The notes under the pieces are model-generated. The model worked only from the letters and a program-made list of their open reading frames with translations. It did no database searches and was not told where the DNA came from. Below are positions 9,659 through 23,173 of a stretch of 64,000 bases of DNA, in pieces. Source of the DNA: Pseudomonas sp. JM0905a (GTDB lineage Bacteria > Pseudomonadota > Gammaproteobacteria > Pseudomonadales > Pseudomonadaceae); contig NZ_JACXBU010000005.1 of NCBI RefSeq assembly GCF_014700075.1, forward strand, positions 1 through 64,000, in the 5' to 3' direction. The first letter of the stretch is position 1. Every line of letters begins with the position of its first letter. A program made the position numbers and the translations under genes.

Positions 9659-10705
9659 ATGCGTTCGAAATCGTTGCTTGCCTGGAAGCTCAAGGCCGTG
9701 TTCGTGGCCGGGCTGTTGTCCGCGTCCATTGCCCAGGCGCGCATGGAAGAGCTGCCCGACAGCGAACTGTCCAACATCACCGGGCAGGCCTTCATCAACC
9801 TGACCACCGACGCCAATGCCGGAATCAACTACACCCGCGTCAACTTCGGGGTGAAGGTCGATACCCAGCTGAACATGAAGAAACTCCAGCTCGGCCAATA
9901 CGACGACGCCGTTACCCGGGCGGGGGAGGTTGCCGGCTCGTCCGACATCCTGATCAACAACTTCGCCCTCGGTACCGTGAACGCCGATGGTTCGATCAAC
10001 CCCTTCCGCATCGCCGATCCCTTCGTCGAGCTGGCCTACTCCGGTAACAAGGTGGTGGGCGTGCGCATCGGCTTCGGCGAGGCCAAGGGCGTGCTGTCCG
10101 GGGATATCCAGAGCCTGACCGGGAACATCCCGGTGCATATCACCGGCACCGCCAAGCCGATCTACGACAAGGCGTCTTTCGGCGACAAGATACTGCTGGG
10201 ATTGGCGGGCATCACGAACTCCACCAAGCTGCAAGGGGACGCCACCCTGGTGAACGCCAGCGGCAACCCCGATCCGGTGCGCGGCGGCCTGGCCGGCATG
10301 CCCAATGGCTCAGGGCTGAGTTGCGTCAGCGGTTGCAACCTCGGCGGACTCTCCGACGCCCTGCTGGGCCTGTTCAAGTCCAGCGGCTGTGCCATCCTCT
10401 CCCTGTCCACCTGCTTCCCGCTCGCCGACTTCAAGTCGCTGCCGGTGGGCAACATTTCCAACATGAACACCATGGACGGCGCGGCGAAAGGCTTCTTCAT
10501 CTCCTTTCAGACCCAGGACCTCGCCTGGAAGGACATGGATCAGAACGCCTTCATGACCGCCCTCAAGGGCGCCTTCATGAACATGCCCAAGTACCGGGAC
10601 GCCAACGGCAACCTGGTGTCGCCGATCAACATCGACTTCGAGCAGGCGTTCAACGGCATTCCGCGCCAGGACACCTGCCTGGGCTCGGCCACCGCGGGGT
10701 GCTGA
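9659..10705 (+). CDS. Exported protein 1 of a DUF6160-like tandem cluster
   Basis: A 348-residue protein with a signal peptide (about 1-27, cleavage after Ala-Gln-Ala). It is followed at once by MEELPDSELSNITGQAFIN, the motif shared by all four genes of the cluster. The rest is Gly/Asn/Asp-rich and beta-strand-like, with patches of alternating hydrophobic residues, a Cys-containing stretch (SCVSGC, SGCAILSLSTC) and a C-terminal end in two further Cys. The motif resembles what I know as DUF6160 proteins of Pseudomonas, Acinetobacter and Marinobacter, which have no settled function. It starts an operon of four; an AGGGAAG ribosome site precedes the ATG. Confidence 0.8.
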   Translation: MRSKSLLAWKLKAVFVAGLLSASIAQARMEELPDSELSNITGQAFINLTTDANAGINYTRVNFGVKVDTQLNMKKLQLGQYDDAVTRAGEVAGSSDILINNFALGTVNADGSINPFRIADPFVELAYSGNKVVGVRIGFGEAKGVLSGDIQSLTGNIPVHITGTAKPIYDKASFGDKILLGLAGITNSTKLQGDATLVNASGNPDPVRGGLAGMPNGSGLSCVSGCNLGGLSDALLGLFKSSGCAILSLSTCFPLADFKSLPVGNISNMNTMDGAAKGFFISFQTQDLAWKDMDQNAFMTALKGAFMNMPKYRDANGNLVSPINIDFEQAFNGIPRQDTCLGSATAGC

Positions 10706-10707
10706 GG

Positions 10708-11736
10708 ATGACCCGAGCCGCGGTGATCCTGCTGTCACTGGCCGCCGCCACCGCACAGGCCGAACTCAAGGCGCTGGACGACGATGAGTTGTCCAGCGTG
10801 GATGGGGCGGGCATTGGCTTCGTGCTGGACCAGGTGCTGCTGGATGCCAACAACGCCACCATCACGATCAACGACATCACCAACGCCGCCAAGCAGAACG
10901 TCCCGATCGCGGTGAAGGAGTTCTACCTCGGTGCCACTGGCAGCAACAAAGGCGCGAACCTGAGCCCCGTGACCATCGGCCGGCTCGATCATCCCTTCGC
11001 TCTCAACCTGGCCAAGGGCGAAGACATGCGCACCCTGCGGGACGACGGACAGTGGGTGCAGACCACGCCGAGCAACATCACCGTCCTTGAGTTCATGTTC
11101 CCCGAGCGCCTCACGGGTGCCGCCGGCCAGGCCTGCATCACGGGCCTCGCGACAGCCGGCAACAACTGCTCCAGCCGCGCCAGCGAAAAGGTGGACCTGG
11201 GGATTCGCTTCGACTTCCAGGTCGCCGCCGGGCGCACCGACATCCTCAACCTGGACTTCGCCGAGCTGGCGATGGACGGCTCCTACCTGCGCCTGTGGGG
11301 CGACAGTGGCCGCAGCCAGATGGTGGGCGAAGCGCGCATCAACATCTTCACCAAGAGCCTGCAGATCATGAGCTGCGCGGCCGGCACCACGGGCTGCACC
11401 ACTGCCACCGAGCAGCGTGACCGCACCATCTTCCTCAACAACGCCTACGCCAACATCTCCCTCGGCTACGGCAAGACCCAGCCATTGCTGTTCGACGTGA
11501 GCAGCAACGGCCAGTTCGTGCTGGAACTGCCCAACCCCACCGCGTCCGGTACCACCCAGGCGCAGAAGGATGCGCTGGCCGCCGACTTCTACGCCAATGC
11601 ACCGCGCACCAACATCGTTATCAACAGCCTCCAGGCCGGCAGTGGCAGCGCCGCCAGCGGCGGCTACAACTTCGGCTACAACGCCATCCAGGGCCTCAGC
11701 ATCAATTATCTGAAGGTAACCAGCCATGATCTCTAG
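10708..11736 (+). CDS. Exported protein 2 of the DUF6160-like cluster
   Basis: A 342-residue protein with a short signal peptide (MTRAAVILLSLAAATAQA), then ELKALDDDELSSVDGAGIG, the shared post-signal motif. The body is predicted beta-rich and Asn/Gly/Thr-rich with four Cys in two pairs (ACITGLATAGNNC, SCAAGTTGC). The frame is open further upstream, but the ATG at 10708 lies two bases after the stop of gene 1, has GAGG just before it and begins with the signal peptide. Its end overlaps the start of gene 3 by 11 bases. Function unknown; probably a surface or periplasmic protein. Confidence 0.8.
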   Translation: MTRAAVILLSLAAATAQAELKALDDDELSSVDGAGIGFVLDQVLLDANNATITINDITNAAKQNVPIAVKEFYLGATGSNKGANLSPVTIGRLDHPFALNLAKGEDMRTLRDDGQWVQTTPSNITVLEFMFPERLTGAAGQACITGLATAGNNCSSRASEKVDLGIRFDFQVAAGRTDILNLDFAELAMDGSYLRLWGDSGRSQMVGEARINIFTKSLQIMSCAAGTTGCTTATEQRDRTIFLNNAYANISLGYGKTQPLLFDVSSNGQFVLELPNPTASGTTQAQKDALAADFYANAPRTNIVINSLQAGSGSAASGGYNFGYNAIQGLSINYLKVTSHDL

Positions 11737-12334
11737 GGCGCTCTACCTGGCTGTGCTGCTGGCGCTGCCGATGCTGGCGCAAGCCGAATTGAAGGCGCTG
11801 GAGGACGCCGACCTGAGCCAGATGAGCGGGCAGGGCGGGGTGTACCTTTCCGGTGAATTCAGCATCAACAAGAACGGCGGCGTGCTCTGGAACACGCCGG
11901 CGTCCAATGACCCGACCACCTGGAAAGCCAATGAACGCAGTTGCGCCATCGCCGGCGCCGGCAGTCCGGAAAGCTGCGGCTTGCGCATCGCCATTCGCTC
12001 CGAGGCCAACGGCGGTTGGTACGTGCTGGACAACCTCAATGGGATCTTCAGTTTCGAAGGCCTGACCCTGAATACCCGCCTCATCAACAGTGGCTTCGGC
12101 GGCGATGGCGCAGCCTTCAATCAGGACGTGCTGGCGCTCGGCCTACCCAACGAGGTGCGTTTCAAGAACGGCAGCTTCGCCTTCGGTGTGGCCAACCAGG
12201 GTGGTTGGCAGAACAAGTCCGGCACCGTCGCCAATGGCGGCAATGCCAGTTACCAGCAGACCAATATCTTCTCGGCGAAGATCGACGGCAGCATCCGCAT
12301 GCAAGGCAGCGTGCTGGTCTTCCCGAAGAACTGA
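11726..12334 (+). CDS. Exported protein 3 of the DUF6160-like cluster
   Basis: A 202-residue protein with a signal peptide (about 1-18, ending in MLAQA), then ELKALEDADLSQMSGQGGVY, the shared motif. The mature part has one Cys pair (SCAIAGAGSPESC) and many short beta-strand-like stretches, ending in GSIRMQGSVLVFP. It is the shortest member of the cluster and looks like a single repeat unit of gene 4. Start overlaps gene 2; AAGGTAA lies upstream of the ATG. Confidence 0.78.
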   Translation: MISRALYLAVLLALPMLAQAELKALEDADLSQMSGQGGVYLSGEFSINKNGGVLWNTPASNDPTTWKANERSCAIAGAGSPESCGLRIAIRSEANGGWYVLDNLNGIFSFEGLTLNTRLINSGFGGDGAAFNQDVLALGLPNEVRFKNGSFAFGVANQGGWQNKSGTVANGGNASYQQTNIFSAKIDGSIRMQGSVLVFPKN

Positions 12335-12344
12335 GGAACCGACC

Positions 12345-14669
12345 ATGCGCCCAGCCCCCTTGCTGTTCGGCATGCTCCTCGCCTCCCAGGTGCAGGCAAT
12401 GGAGGCCCTGGACGACTCGTCCATGGCGGCGGTCAGCGGCCAGGGCGGCATCAACCTGGAAACCTCCAGCCAGGGCTGGTCGGCCAGCAATATCAGCTAC
12501 ACCCAGGACGGCCGCAGCCTGAACCTTCGCGATGTGAGCAATCGCGCCGCCAGCGGCTCCACCAGCACCTCCCAGACGACCCTCGACGTGCAGGACGGCC
12601 AGCTGCAGGTCCAGCACAGCTCCAGCCCCCAGGTGCTGGCGGTGAACAACATCGAGATGGATGGCAGCAGCAAGAGCTTCGGTGCTTTCCGAGCCTTCTA
12701 CACCCTGGGCGCCACCCTGAAGCTCAAGGGCGGCGGGGCCAGCGGCGTCAGCGGGATTGCGGTGGACGACAGCCGGCTGTCCCTCAGCGACGTGACCTTC
12801 TACTACCGCGACAATGGCTACGATCTCGTCGTCAAAGGGCTCTCCTTCGACACCTACCTGGACAACGCCTACCTCGACATCGTCAGCGGTGGCAGCGGCA
12901 AGGAGGTCAAGCTCAACCTCGGCGACGCGCGTTTCATCGGCACCATCGGTGGCATCAGCCTGGACCTCGCCCACGGCGACCCAACCGCTTCGCCCGTGAC
13001 GCCCTCCGCGCCGGACCTGCGCGACCCCAACGCCAGCCGCAGTTTCGGCAAATTGAGCATGGACCTGCGCCTGGGCGGCAGCCTCAGCGTCGCCAGCGGG
13101 GGCGCCAGCGGCGAAGGCATCCGCATTCGGCCGGACCTGAATATCGGCAGCAGCCTGTTCCAGTACCAGGATGAAGGCATCCTGCGTGCCGAGAACTTCT
13201 CCGGCACCCTGCGCAGCCTTGGCGGCCTGACCCTCGACCTGGCCCAGGACGCGGGTGGCAGTTATGCACAGGTGGCCTTCCAGGACCTCAAGCTCAACGC
13301 CACGCTGGGCGGCCTGATCATCGGCAACCCGACCAACCAGAAGCTCGGCAGCCTGGCCATCGACCTCAACTTCGCCGACGACGGCGCCAAGCAGAACTGG
13401 CTCAAACTGCGTCCGGGTGGCGACCCCAACTCCGGTGCCAAGGGCCTGACCGCCGATGTCAGCTGGAACATGGCCAACAGCTCGGTTTCCCTCACTGATA
13501 ACGGCAACAGCATGTGGTTCAGCGGCCTGCGCACCAACGGCACCGGCCAGATCACCCTGGACCTGACCAAGAGCTGCGCCGGCGGGGCCAGCACCGGTTG
13601 TTACGCCGGCACCCAGAGCGACATGAGCAAGGGTAGCTACAACGGCCATTTCGACGGCCTGCGCCTGGGGCTTTCCAACATCAAGGGTGGCTACAGCTTC
13701 GACGGCCTGCGCGTGGGGTCGGCCGACGCGCCGCTGCAGGGCGGCACCGAGTTGCTGGTGCTGATGGAAATCTTCCCGGCCTACGACTTCACCCTGAACG
13801 GCCAGATCACCCTGTTGCCGGGTGGCAGCAGTGGCGACGGCGTGCGCTATAACGCCGATTTCGTCTTCAGCGATGCCCGCGCCGCCATCACAGTAGACGA
13901 AACCGGCAAGGGCCTGTGGCTGGCCGGCACGACCTACGACATGCACTTCCGCGATGGCTCGGTGGACGTGAGCAACAACGGCGTGGAGCTGCGCAAGGGC
14001 TCCTACTGGTCGAAGCTGGAAGTCAGCGACCTGCGCTGGGGCGACCGCGCCACCGGTACCAGCCTCGGCCGGCTGGTGCTCAAGCGCTACGAGCTGGGTT
14101 CCACGCTGGCGCTCAGCTCCGGCGGTGCCGGCGCCCTCTGCGTGGGCGGCAGCGGCACCAACGCTGGTGCCTGTTCGGCTAGCGGCGGCCGCTGGGAAGA
14201 CCGGGGCAATGAAGGCGTGTCGGTCAAATTGAAGAACGTCTTCGTCCGCGACACCGCCATCGAAAGCACCACCAACGGCGTGGCCACGGACGAGAAGCGC
14301 AACCAGGTCGTCTGGGAAACCAACCGCGTCAATGGCGCCGCCGGCAGCGGCAGCCAGATGGTTGTGGATAACTTCTATACCTCCGACGGCAATCCCAGCG
14401 ACCCCAACGCCAACACCTATGGCTTCAACGCCGACCTCAACCTGGACGTGGCGCCCACCAAGGTCTGCGCCAAGAACGGCGGCAGTTGCACTCCGGTCAG
14501 CCCCGACCCGCTGGGTTTTGCGGTCAACGGCCGCATCCACTTCAAGGAAATCAACGTCGACCGCCTGCAACATGTCCACCCCACCGGCGGCGCGGTTACC
14601 TCCATGTACGGCATCAAGGTGCAGAACGCCGATATCAGCGCCAACCTGACGGCTACGCCGATCAATTGA
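12345..14669 (+). CDS. Exported protein 4 of the DUF6160-like cluster (large)
   Basis: A 774-residue protein with a signal peptide ([18 protein letters not shown]), then [19 protein letters not shown], the shared motif. The mature part consists of repeated 50-70 residue units such as [42 protein letters not shown] and [19 protein letters not shown]. These suggest a long beta-solenoid or beta-barrel-like fold. Few Cys are present, in the loops ([21 protein letters not shown]). The start at 12345 is 10 bases after the gene 3 stop with GAGGA upstream. The opposite strand is also open but is a high-GC artefact. Function unknown; size and repeats suggest a surface or outer-membrane-associated protein. 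Confidence 0.8.
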
Positions 14670-14693
14670 GCCTTCGGGGCGCCGCCGCCTTTC

Positions 14694-14789
14694 TGTGGGG
14701 GCGAATTCATTCGCCAAGGGCGGCGCAGCTGCCCCTCGGCGATGTTGGGCAGACCTTCGGCCTGCTTGGCGAATAAATTCGCCCCTACA
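14694..14789. repeat. REP-type inverted pair
   Basis: TGTGGGGGCGAATTCATTCG at 14694 and, in inverse orientation, CGAATAAATTCGCCCCTACA ending at 14789, about 53 bases apart. These are typical of pseudomonad REP sequences that occur as inverted pairs between genes and are mobilised by RAYT transposases. No RAYT gene is in the window. The pair lies between the exported-protein cluster and leuA. The remaining bases before leuA hold nothing else I recognise. Confidence 0.8.
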
Positions 14790-14946
14790 GTGTTTCTCTG
14801 GCCCCTATCTACCACCCGCCCGCCGACCTTTCCGCCCACCGCTTTTCACGCCACAATTCCCTGATCTGGGGCCGTCGCCACAAGCAGTCCGGCACCATCA
14901 GCCAGAGCCCCGGCCGCACGCACGGTGGGGCCGTGAGGAGCGAGCC

Positions 14947-22511: not shown

Positions 22512-22757
22512 ATGGCCAGCATCACAATTCGGAACCTGGACGACGATCTCAAAGCTCGGCTTCGCGTCGTTGCCGCCAGTCATGGCCGGTCGATGGAGGA
22601 AGAGGTGAGGGTGATCCTTGCTGAAGCGCTTTCGAGGCAGGACAAACCAAGCGGAATGGGCTCCCGGATTCATAGCCGCTTTGCGGCAGTGGGTGGCGCT
22701 GATATTGAATTACCCGCCCGCAAGACCAAGGCTCGTGCAGCGGACTTTGATGAATGA
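22512..22757 (+). CDS. fitA: FitA-type antitoxin (ribbon-helix-helix)
   Basis: An 81-residue protein with an N-terminal ribbon-helix-helix (MASITIRNLDDDLKARLRV, then the helix of HGRSMEEEVRVILAEAL), typical of FitA/VapB antitoxins. I chose the ATG at 22512, with GGAGGT 4 bases upstream, over the longer frame. It overlaps the toxin start by 4 bases. It binds FitB through its C-terminal tail and the operator through the RHH. Confidence 0.9.
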   Translation: MASITIRNLDDDLKARLRVVAASHGRSMEEEVRVILAEALSRQDKPSGMGSRIHSRFAAVGGADIELPARKTKARAADFDE

Positions 22758-23173
22758 TCCTGCTCGATACCAATGTGCTGTCCGAACTGATGCGTGCGAA
22801 GCCTGACCCGAATGTCATCGCTTGGGTGGACGCTCAGAGAAGCAGCGACCTGGTCATCTCTTCCATCACCGTTGCAGAGATCCTGTACGGCATCGCGAGG
22901 ATGCCCGATGGTAAGCGTAAGGACTCGCTGTACGTACTCGCTTCTGCCATGTTCGAAGAGGACTTTGCAGGCAGCATCCTGGCCTTCGATGCCGACGCGG
23001 CTGTGCACTACGCAGACCTGGTCGCGGCCAGCGAGGGGAGGGGGAAAATAGCCGACATGGCAGATGGGCAGATCGCCGCGATTGCCCGGCTTCATGGTGC
23101 GAGGATCGCTACTCGAAACGTCCGTCACTTCGAAGCGTTTGGCATTCCGTTGGTTAATCCTTGGAGCGAGTAG
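22754..23173 (+). CDS. fitB: FitB/VapC-type PIN-domain toxin
   Basis: A 139-residue PIN-domain ribonuclease. Acidic residues of the active site are seen as Asp5 (ILLDTNVLSEL), Glu at about 43 (TVAEILYG), Asp at about 103 (IADMADGQIAA) and a further Asp near the C-terminus. Length and the LDTNVLSELMRAKPDP start match FitB. It overlaps fitA by 4 bases (ATGA). Confidence 0.92.
   Translation: MILLDTNVLSELMRAKPDPNVIAWVDAQRSSDLVISSITVAEILYGIARMPDGKRKDSLYVLASAMFEEDFAGSILAFDADAAVHYADLVAASEGRGKIADMADGQIAAIARLHGARIATRNVRHFEAFGIPLVNPWSE

Follow-up and report, generated by a model that had tools for sequence, protein, structure and literature searches.

A double-glycine-leader-like motif behind the signal peptides of four tandem Pseudomonas proteins and its co-occurrence with the C39 peptidase FilB

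Peptidases of the C39 family are best known from within bacteriocin exporters, where they act on the cytoplasmic side. Double-glycine (GG) leaders carry hydrophobic residues at positions -12, -7 and -4 and a glycine at -2. Here we analyze a 64,000-nucleotide stretch of Pseudomonas sp. JM0905a (contig NZ_JACXBU010000005.1, positions 1 to 64,000, forward strand; hereafter the window), in which four consecutive genes, designated A to D, encode exported-type proteins that carry a motif resembling such leaders after a Sec-type signal peptide. The pairing of these motif proteins with a matching C39 peptidase, FilB, in the genomes searched suggests a little-studied two-step sorting route.

The families concerned, namely DUF6160, FilA-F and FapD, are already known, FapD bears the NCBI label 'maturation endopeptidase', and FapE is a suspected substrate. 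According to one report, FapD is a periplasmic C39 peptidase whose active-site cysteine is required for secretion of FapC; its target is called unclear, the Fap proteins are said to be without canonical C39 sequences, and FapE or FapF is proposed as a target owing to GG/GA motifs, FapE alone being without N-terminal peptides over approximately its first 70 residues (PMC5557850). A second report says that the FapD substrate had still to be identified, with a hint towards FapE (PMC6173800), and a limited search of titles and abstract openings revealed no later Fap paper that names it. The JM0905a genome contains filA-, filB-, filC- and filD-like genes in that order, as relatives of the Fil system (FilA NF050077, FilB NF050078, FilC NF050079, FilD NF050080) known from Acinetobacter and related bacteria. 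Among the texts returned by a limited literature search, none describes FilA as the substrate and FilB as its protease, and within the same limits we found in print neither a GG-type leader on Sec-exported substrates, nor a one-protease, many-substrates pattern for FilB, nor a leader-type site in FapE.

The A-D operon and its leader-like motif

Genes A to D form a tight, almost gapless operon on the + strand (9659-14669), with 2 bases between A and B, an 11-base overlap of B and C, and 10 bases between C and D. The genes, with lengths in amino acids (aa), and their motifs are as follows.

9659..10705, + strand: gene A, 348 aa; signal peptide, leader-like motif, mature part of ~305 aa; DUF6160 30.1 bits (E = 5.8e-7)
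9752..9787, + strand: motif of A, LPDSELSNITGQ, occupying -12 to -1 relative to the proposed cut; 15.3 bits to the GG-leader model TIGR01847
10708..11736, + strand: gene B, 342 aa; signal peptide, leader-like motif, mature part of ~308 aa; DUF6160 24.9 bits (E = 2.5e-5), below the 27-bit cut-off
10774..10809, + strand: motif of B, LDDDELSSVDGA
11726..12334, + strand: gene C, 202 aa; signal peptide, leader-like motif, mature part of ~166 aa; DUF6160 36.9 bits (E = 4.6e-9)
11798..11833, + strand: motif of C, LEDADLSQMSGQ
12345..14669, + strand: gene D, 774 aa; signal peptide, leader-like motif, mature part all-beta in the structure model from about residue 36; DUF6160 44.5 bits (E = 1.9e-11)
12408..12443, + strand: motif of D, placed on a basis that includes the motif matrix and the D-family alignment

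As judged by eye from the sequence, all four proteins begin with a Sec-type signal peptide, and each then carries the 12-residue motif L-x-D-x-x-[LM]-x-x-[VIM]-x-G-[QA], which begins 4 residues past the cleavage site in A, B and C and 3 residues past it in D. A first-pass annotation of the window had described this arrangement and had given the four motif strings correctly; its generalized form, hxxLxDxxLxxhxGxxG, holds up to the final glycine, which is found in C and D (GQGG) but is not a general feature, as A reads GQAF and B reads GAGI. The Pfam family DUF6160 (PF19657), which matches all four proteins, has a curated cut-off that A, C and D pass and that B misses, even though B has both motif and signal peptide.

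A profile of signal peptide plus motif, run against the whole 5.79-Mb genome, returned six places at E<=7.2e-12, all of which were rows of that profile, with the next at 0.01; these correspond to A-D and two proteins encoded elsewhere. A motif matrix scored A-D at 20.5-28.2, whereas none of 74 other genes of the same genome exceeded 6.6, its training motifs having included those of A-D (L104 and L115, which have no readable start, and L037 were left out). Across 55 DUF6160 loci with 49 unique motifs, the consensus is [LM](-12) x D(-10) x x [LM](-7) x x [VI](-4) [TS](-3) G(-2) Q(-1), with G(-2) in 48/49 and Q(-1) in 45/49; as these loci were found with a profile containing the motif, conservation among them is partly by construction, and independent checks matter. 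Such a check is provided by 79 homologues of D, collected by whole-protein search and aligned to give 78 readable rows. All 78 have L(-12), [LM](-7), [VI](-4) and [QR](-1), while G(-2) is kept in 77 and D(-10) in 75; few columns of the protein vary more than positions -9, -8 and -5. This pattern would be expected of an amphipathic leader that is bound. Loss of the motif in orthologues, which the first-pass annotation had named as grounds for abandoning a signal function, is not seen in this family.

The same annotation had proposed comparing the operon across Pseudomonas. A scan with D, using one genome per species, covered the best 80 of 119 places and yielded 79 loci with D, of which 77 were readable after L156 and L162 were dropped. 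These loci come from Pseudomonas, Atopomonas, Marinobacter, Thalassolituus, Bacterioplanes and others, and the cassette motifs are kept, with four motif genes in 50 cassettes, three in 23, two in 3 and five in 1. The residues ending the motif are mostly typical of the gene (GQAF in A, G[AEQ]G in B, GQGG in C). Genomes G160 and G109 each have a related cassette no more than ~20 kb from filB.

Whereas the motif is shared, the sequences that follow it are mostly not. Among 23 motif proteins (the six of this genome and 17 from four distant genomes), whose mature parts range from ~112 to 741 aa, only 3/253 pairs have similar mature parts (E<=0.01), yet the distance from cleavage site to motif is exactly 4 residues in 22/23, with 3 residues in D and two further aligned rows. 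FilA and the protein designated C43 do share their mature parts. The structure model of D (mean confidence score, pLDDT, of 84) is a long antiparallel beta meander in which 27 of residues 1-32 fall in stretches with pLDDT <50 and the first strand begins at residue 36, just past the proposed cut at 33; this order boundary provides weak support, because signal peptides model poorly anyway. Searches with the D fold revealed no clear match among solved structures, and a self-comparison of D, aimed at the repeats that the first-pass annotation had ascribed to this largest protein, lacked power and returned nothing.

The hydrophobic residues at -12, -7 and -4 and the glycine at -2 are present in all four proteins, and the spacing thus matches that of GG leaders. 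The GG-leader rule of Gly, Ala or Ser at -1 is not followed as such, the residue being Gln in A, C and D and Ala in B. Of eight leaders tested, that of A falls just below the cut-off of the NCBIfam GG-leader model TIGR01847 (15.3 versus 15.7 bits), which returned no match for the other seven; one other leader matches a lantibiotic leader model at 13.4 bits (cut-off 32.95), and six match no leader model of either kind. The leader-model library therefore appears to agree weakly with a likeness to GG leaders. The earlier proposal, of a GG-leader-like signal on the periplasmic side that could serve secretion, sorting or processing, is partly supported: the spacing stands, and processing at the motif and arrival at the surface are predictions.

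Two other assignments were rejected. A peptide bacteriocin does not fit the length of the proteins (202-774 aa), their Sec-type signals and the lack of an exporter in the operon. Membership of A-D in the FilA pilin family was set aside on scores far below the cut-off, the FilA model (NF050077, cut-off 220 bits) giving 14 bits for A, 26.6 bits for D and no match for B and C.

FilB and its co-occurrence with motif proteins

One of the two additional motif proteins of the genome, a FilA-like protein (L007, 9109-9561, minus strand), precedes filB and is followed in order by filB, filC (FapF-like), filD (FadL family) and a gene for a MalM-domain protein. FilB is a C39 peptidase of 253 aa (Pfam C39 72.7 bits, cut-off 22; NCBIfam FilB model 287.6 bits), and FilC matches its NCBIfam model at 333.7 bits; FilB, FilC and FilD of this genome fall below the curated cut-offs of 475, 630 and 970 bits. 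Directly upstream of the fil operon lie two adjacent MalT-like LuxR regulators of 903 and 904 aa (L007, 9791-15213). A-D share with FilA the N-terminal signal and leader, but they score far below the FilA cut-off, form an operon of their own and have different mature parts.

No second FilB was detected in this genome by the FilB profile. The Pfam C39 profile revealed one additional match that the FilB profile had missed, a 315-aa lipoprotein-like protein (L013, 5323-6270, + strand) beside a 155-aa exported-looking protein, together with two weak matches (17 bits) in frames of ~730 aa. The nearest solved chains to FilB are the double-glycine peptidases LahT (6mpz, E = 3e-5) and PCAT1 (7n87, 4ry2). 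Of 27 FilB sequences collected for a count of catalytic residues, 2 were mis-extracted and dropped, and Q61, C67, H152 and D168 are present in 25/25 of the remainder. The motif proteins and FilB thus resemble GG leaders and the C39 domains of peptidase-containing ABC transporters (LahT, 6mpz; PCAT1, 4ry2) in the hydrophobic residues at -12, -7 and -4, the glycine at -2, the peptidase family and its catalytic residues. They differ from these transporter systems in that the leader of A-D comes after a Sec signal peptide, the substrates are large, the -1 residue is mostly Gln, and FilB is a separate protein of exported type.

The distribution of FilB was compared with that of DUF6160 in an order-level sample of 194 genomes and a class-level sample of 274, with four genomes common to both and a union of 464. 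At E<=1e-3 the FilB profile also matches FapD-like and ABC-transporter C39 domains, and matches were therefore split at 170 bits to define strong FilB, a threshold that falls in a gap between 174 and 161 and was chosen after the scores were known. DUF6160 occurs in 25 genomes of the order sample and strong FilB in 23, all of which have both. In the class sample DUF6160 is found in exactly the six genomes with strong FilB and in 0/38 with weaker C39 matches, and it was found in 0/14 control genomes. DUF6160 exceeds the Pfam cut-off in 24/25 of the order genomes and 5/6 of the class genomes. Over the union, 27 genomes have both, 2 have DUF6160 only and none has strong FilB only (Fisher p = 1e-41, kinship ignored); the 27 span 11 families, at least two of which (f1, f20) also contain genomes with neither. 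Of the weaker C39 matches in the two samples, a minority were retrieved. One of the exceptions, G057, has a sub-cut-off DUF6160 match without strong FilB and probably represents a chance match; the other, G002, is considered below. In G058, the best C39 relative under the threshold (161 bits) is encoded 767 bases from a motif protein, VDDSQLSEVDGQ, on the opposite strand, which Pfam missed.

These data reveal a set of exported-type proteins in which a conserved GG-leader-like motif follows the signal peptide at a nearly constant distance, and which co-occur almost perfectly with an intact C39 gene. The search for a co-occurring protease proposed in the first-pass annotation thus found one, along with a gene for a FapF-like pore. 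Up to 17 DUF6160 matches accompany a single FilB: G330 and G442, both of the class sample, have 15 and 17 matches, mostly in short frames of ~100-270 residues, and one FilB each. A further genome of that sample, G238, has seven copies of a short C39 protein (~55-60 bits to FilB) and no DUF6160.

The A-D operon itself contains no transporter gene, as read from its gene content. Judged by their protein sequences, mksFEB-like genes together with a small unassigned gene lie on its upstream side, and a leuA-like gene lies on the other. The stretch that separates D from the leuA-like gene (window 14690-14790) contains an inverted repeat seen by eye, GCGAATTCATTCGCCAAGG ... TTGGCGAATAAATTCGCC, which resembles a dispersed repeat element or a terminator. 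Elsewhere in the window (22754-23173), a PIN-domain (VapC-like) protein, recognized by eye from its N-terminus, might belong to a toxin-antitoxin pair.

A leader-type motif in FapE-like proteins

FilB matches the FapD model at 117 bits and FilC matches FapF at 68.7 bits, although both lie far below the respective cut-offs (330 and 700 bits). We read 19 loci with a FapD-like C39 gene, all from genomes without DUF6160. A six-frame search with the pattern [LIVMTF]xxxx[LM]xx[LMIV]RG[GRK], written once examples were known, matches the FapE-like gene behind fapD in 17/19 loci, and the motif is followed each time by F or Y. The misses are L070, with one unrelated match, and L072, with none; further matches over the 19 loci number three, two in small upstream genes (L067, L085) and the unrelated one in L070. 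The features in question are these.

L121, 5634-6371, - strand: FapE-like protein with the motif, R-G then G, R or K; likewise in L077, L079, L084, L085, L087, L090 and other FapD loci
Small exported non-FapE genes, positions with fapD oriented +: L067 977, L068 789, L079 355, L080 1033, L085 896, L086 1026, L088 3073, L070 724

The motif represents a candidate cut site for FapD. In 15 aligned FapE-like proteins it is present in 15/15, with R and G the sole fully conserved columns besides the start, but these proteins were picked partly for a visible motif and the figures are to that extent by construction; a further set of FapE homologues, all >=88% identical, was not used as evidence. FapE differs from the DUF6160 proteins in having G, R or K rather than Q at -1 and a variable spacer between signal peptide and motif. 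The DUF6160-trained matrix gives the FapE proteins of L069, L077 and L083 scores of 9.8-10.5, above the control maximum of 6.6, but not most of the others; taken gene by gene, most have p ~0.05-0.2 and only L069, L077, L080 and L083 have p<=0.0034; the low significance of the majority arises because the matrix expects Q at -1. In FapE of L082, the position that the matrix ranks best is not that of the motif. In the small exported genes near FapD-like genes, leader-like motifs can be seen by eye and in some cases include GG or GA; only those of L068 (upstream, 10.1), L079 (upstream, 11.3) and L088 (downstream, 14.2) exceed the controls. The last residue of the motif in the FapE read here is number 39 of 245 in the longer protein form, so the motif would explain at best part of the missing N-terminal peptides.

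A proposed route, its alternatives and its meaning

In the proposed route, A-D would first be exported by Sec and cut by signal peptidase at a predicted AxA-type site, leaving a pro-peptide of ~16 residues composed of 3-4 spacer residues and the 12-residue amphipathic motif. FilB would bind this pro-peptide as the C39 domains of bacteriocin exporters bind GG leaders, and would cut behind G-[QA], the exact bond being a guess by analogy. The mature proteins, of which D is all-beta in its model, would then probably reach or cross the outer membrane with the FapF-like FilC. A single FilB would serve several dispersed substrates, six of them in this genome. We assign a probability of about 0.68 to the proposal that A-D are substrates of a periplasmic double-glycine-type route in which FilB reads and cuts the motif, and hold with clearly less confidence that they reach the surface via FilC.

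Several observations weigh against this proposal. The -1 residue is Q (or A), compared with G or A at classic GG sites, and filB lies outside the operon of the window, elsewhere in the genome. FilB is predicted to be periplasmic, the basis being a hydrophobic N-terminus and a resemblance to FapD. The post hoc threshold and the use of a motif-containing profile, both described above, bear on the statistics, and the motif was inspected in part of the DUF6160 matches of the 27 genomes; in G202 all three matches fall below the Pfam cut-off (22.4-25.5 bits). G002 has a real motif protein and a C39 match of just 26 bits, in a genome that is 75% complete. Finally, FilC scores >=198 bits in the same six genomes of the class sample and <=88 elsewhere. 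In that sample it is thus as tightly tied to the motif as FilB, so that the motif reader could be FilC, or both, and presence alone cannot separate them.

This last point lends itself to a different explanation: the motif would serve as a docking tag that stays on the mature protein and is recognized by FilC, or by FilB acting as a chaperone, as C39-like domains do in some type I exporters. Some C39-like domains are indeed described as catalytically inactive and as chaperoning substrates (PMC5557850, PMC6173800). Yet the four catalytic residues are kept in every readable FilB, the active-site cysteine is required in the related Fap system (PMC5557850), and in the model of D the motif sits in a low-confidence pro-region just before the folded part; we consider a docking tag unlikely. 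DUF6160 might instead be the ordinary N-terminus of paralogous surface or pilin-like proteins, with the motif either an ancestral remnant or an element of structure, and no protease at work. The head of the NCBIfam family is named 'putative pilus system protein FilA', with A and D among its weak matches, FilA of Acinetobacter Tol 5 is termed 'Fil pilus subunit' in one paper (PMC11784438), and the mature parts common to FilA and C43 would fit such paralogy. That account is harder to reconcile with the mostly unrelated mature parts behind a motif whose distance to the signal peptide is near-fixed, with FilA-model scores well below the cut-off, and with the near-perfect co-occurrence with one protease, and we regard it as improbable. 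The resemblance to GG leaders could also be taken literally, the proteins being secreted antimicrobial or signaling peptides exported by a peptidase-containing ABC transporter, but their Sec-type signal peptides, the size of their mature parts, the weakness of the genome's two C39 matches in frames of ABC-transporter length and the operon's lack of a transporter make this very improbable.

The Fil and Fap observations might be joined in a general Gram-negative two-leader relay, in which a Sec signal is followed by a GG-type leader whose removal by a free periplasmic C39 peptidase licenses outer-membrane passage or surface assembly. In the Fil branch, one FilB would act on 2 to 17 dispersed substrates with a G-Q cut; in the Fap branch, the cut by FapD would fall at R-G-[GRK] in FapE-like proteins and in some small ones encoded upstream, which would give the exact FapD site. 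We consider the chances of this wider scheme to be evenly balanced. Sortase, rhombosortase and exosortase are other sorting systems in which one enzyme serves many substrates. The likeness is that of a short signal on otherwise unrelated exported proteins that co-occurs with one enzyme; the difference is that here the signal is N-terminal and the enzyme belongs to the C39 family.

If correct, the route described here would represent a different use of the same leader logic, with a free periplasmic C39 peptidase acting on a family of Sec-exported substrates, and exported proteins that now carry the labels 'hypothetical' or 'DUF6160' could be annotated by a new sorting signal. For FapE, the leader-type site would likewise sharpen the prior suspicion of this protein, offering a precise and directly testable FapD target in Pseudomonas amyloid secretion.

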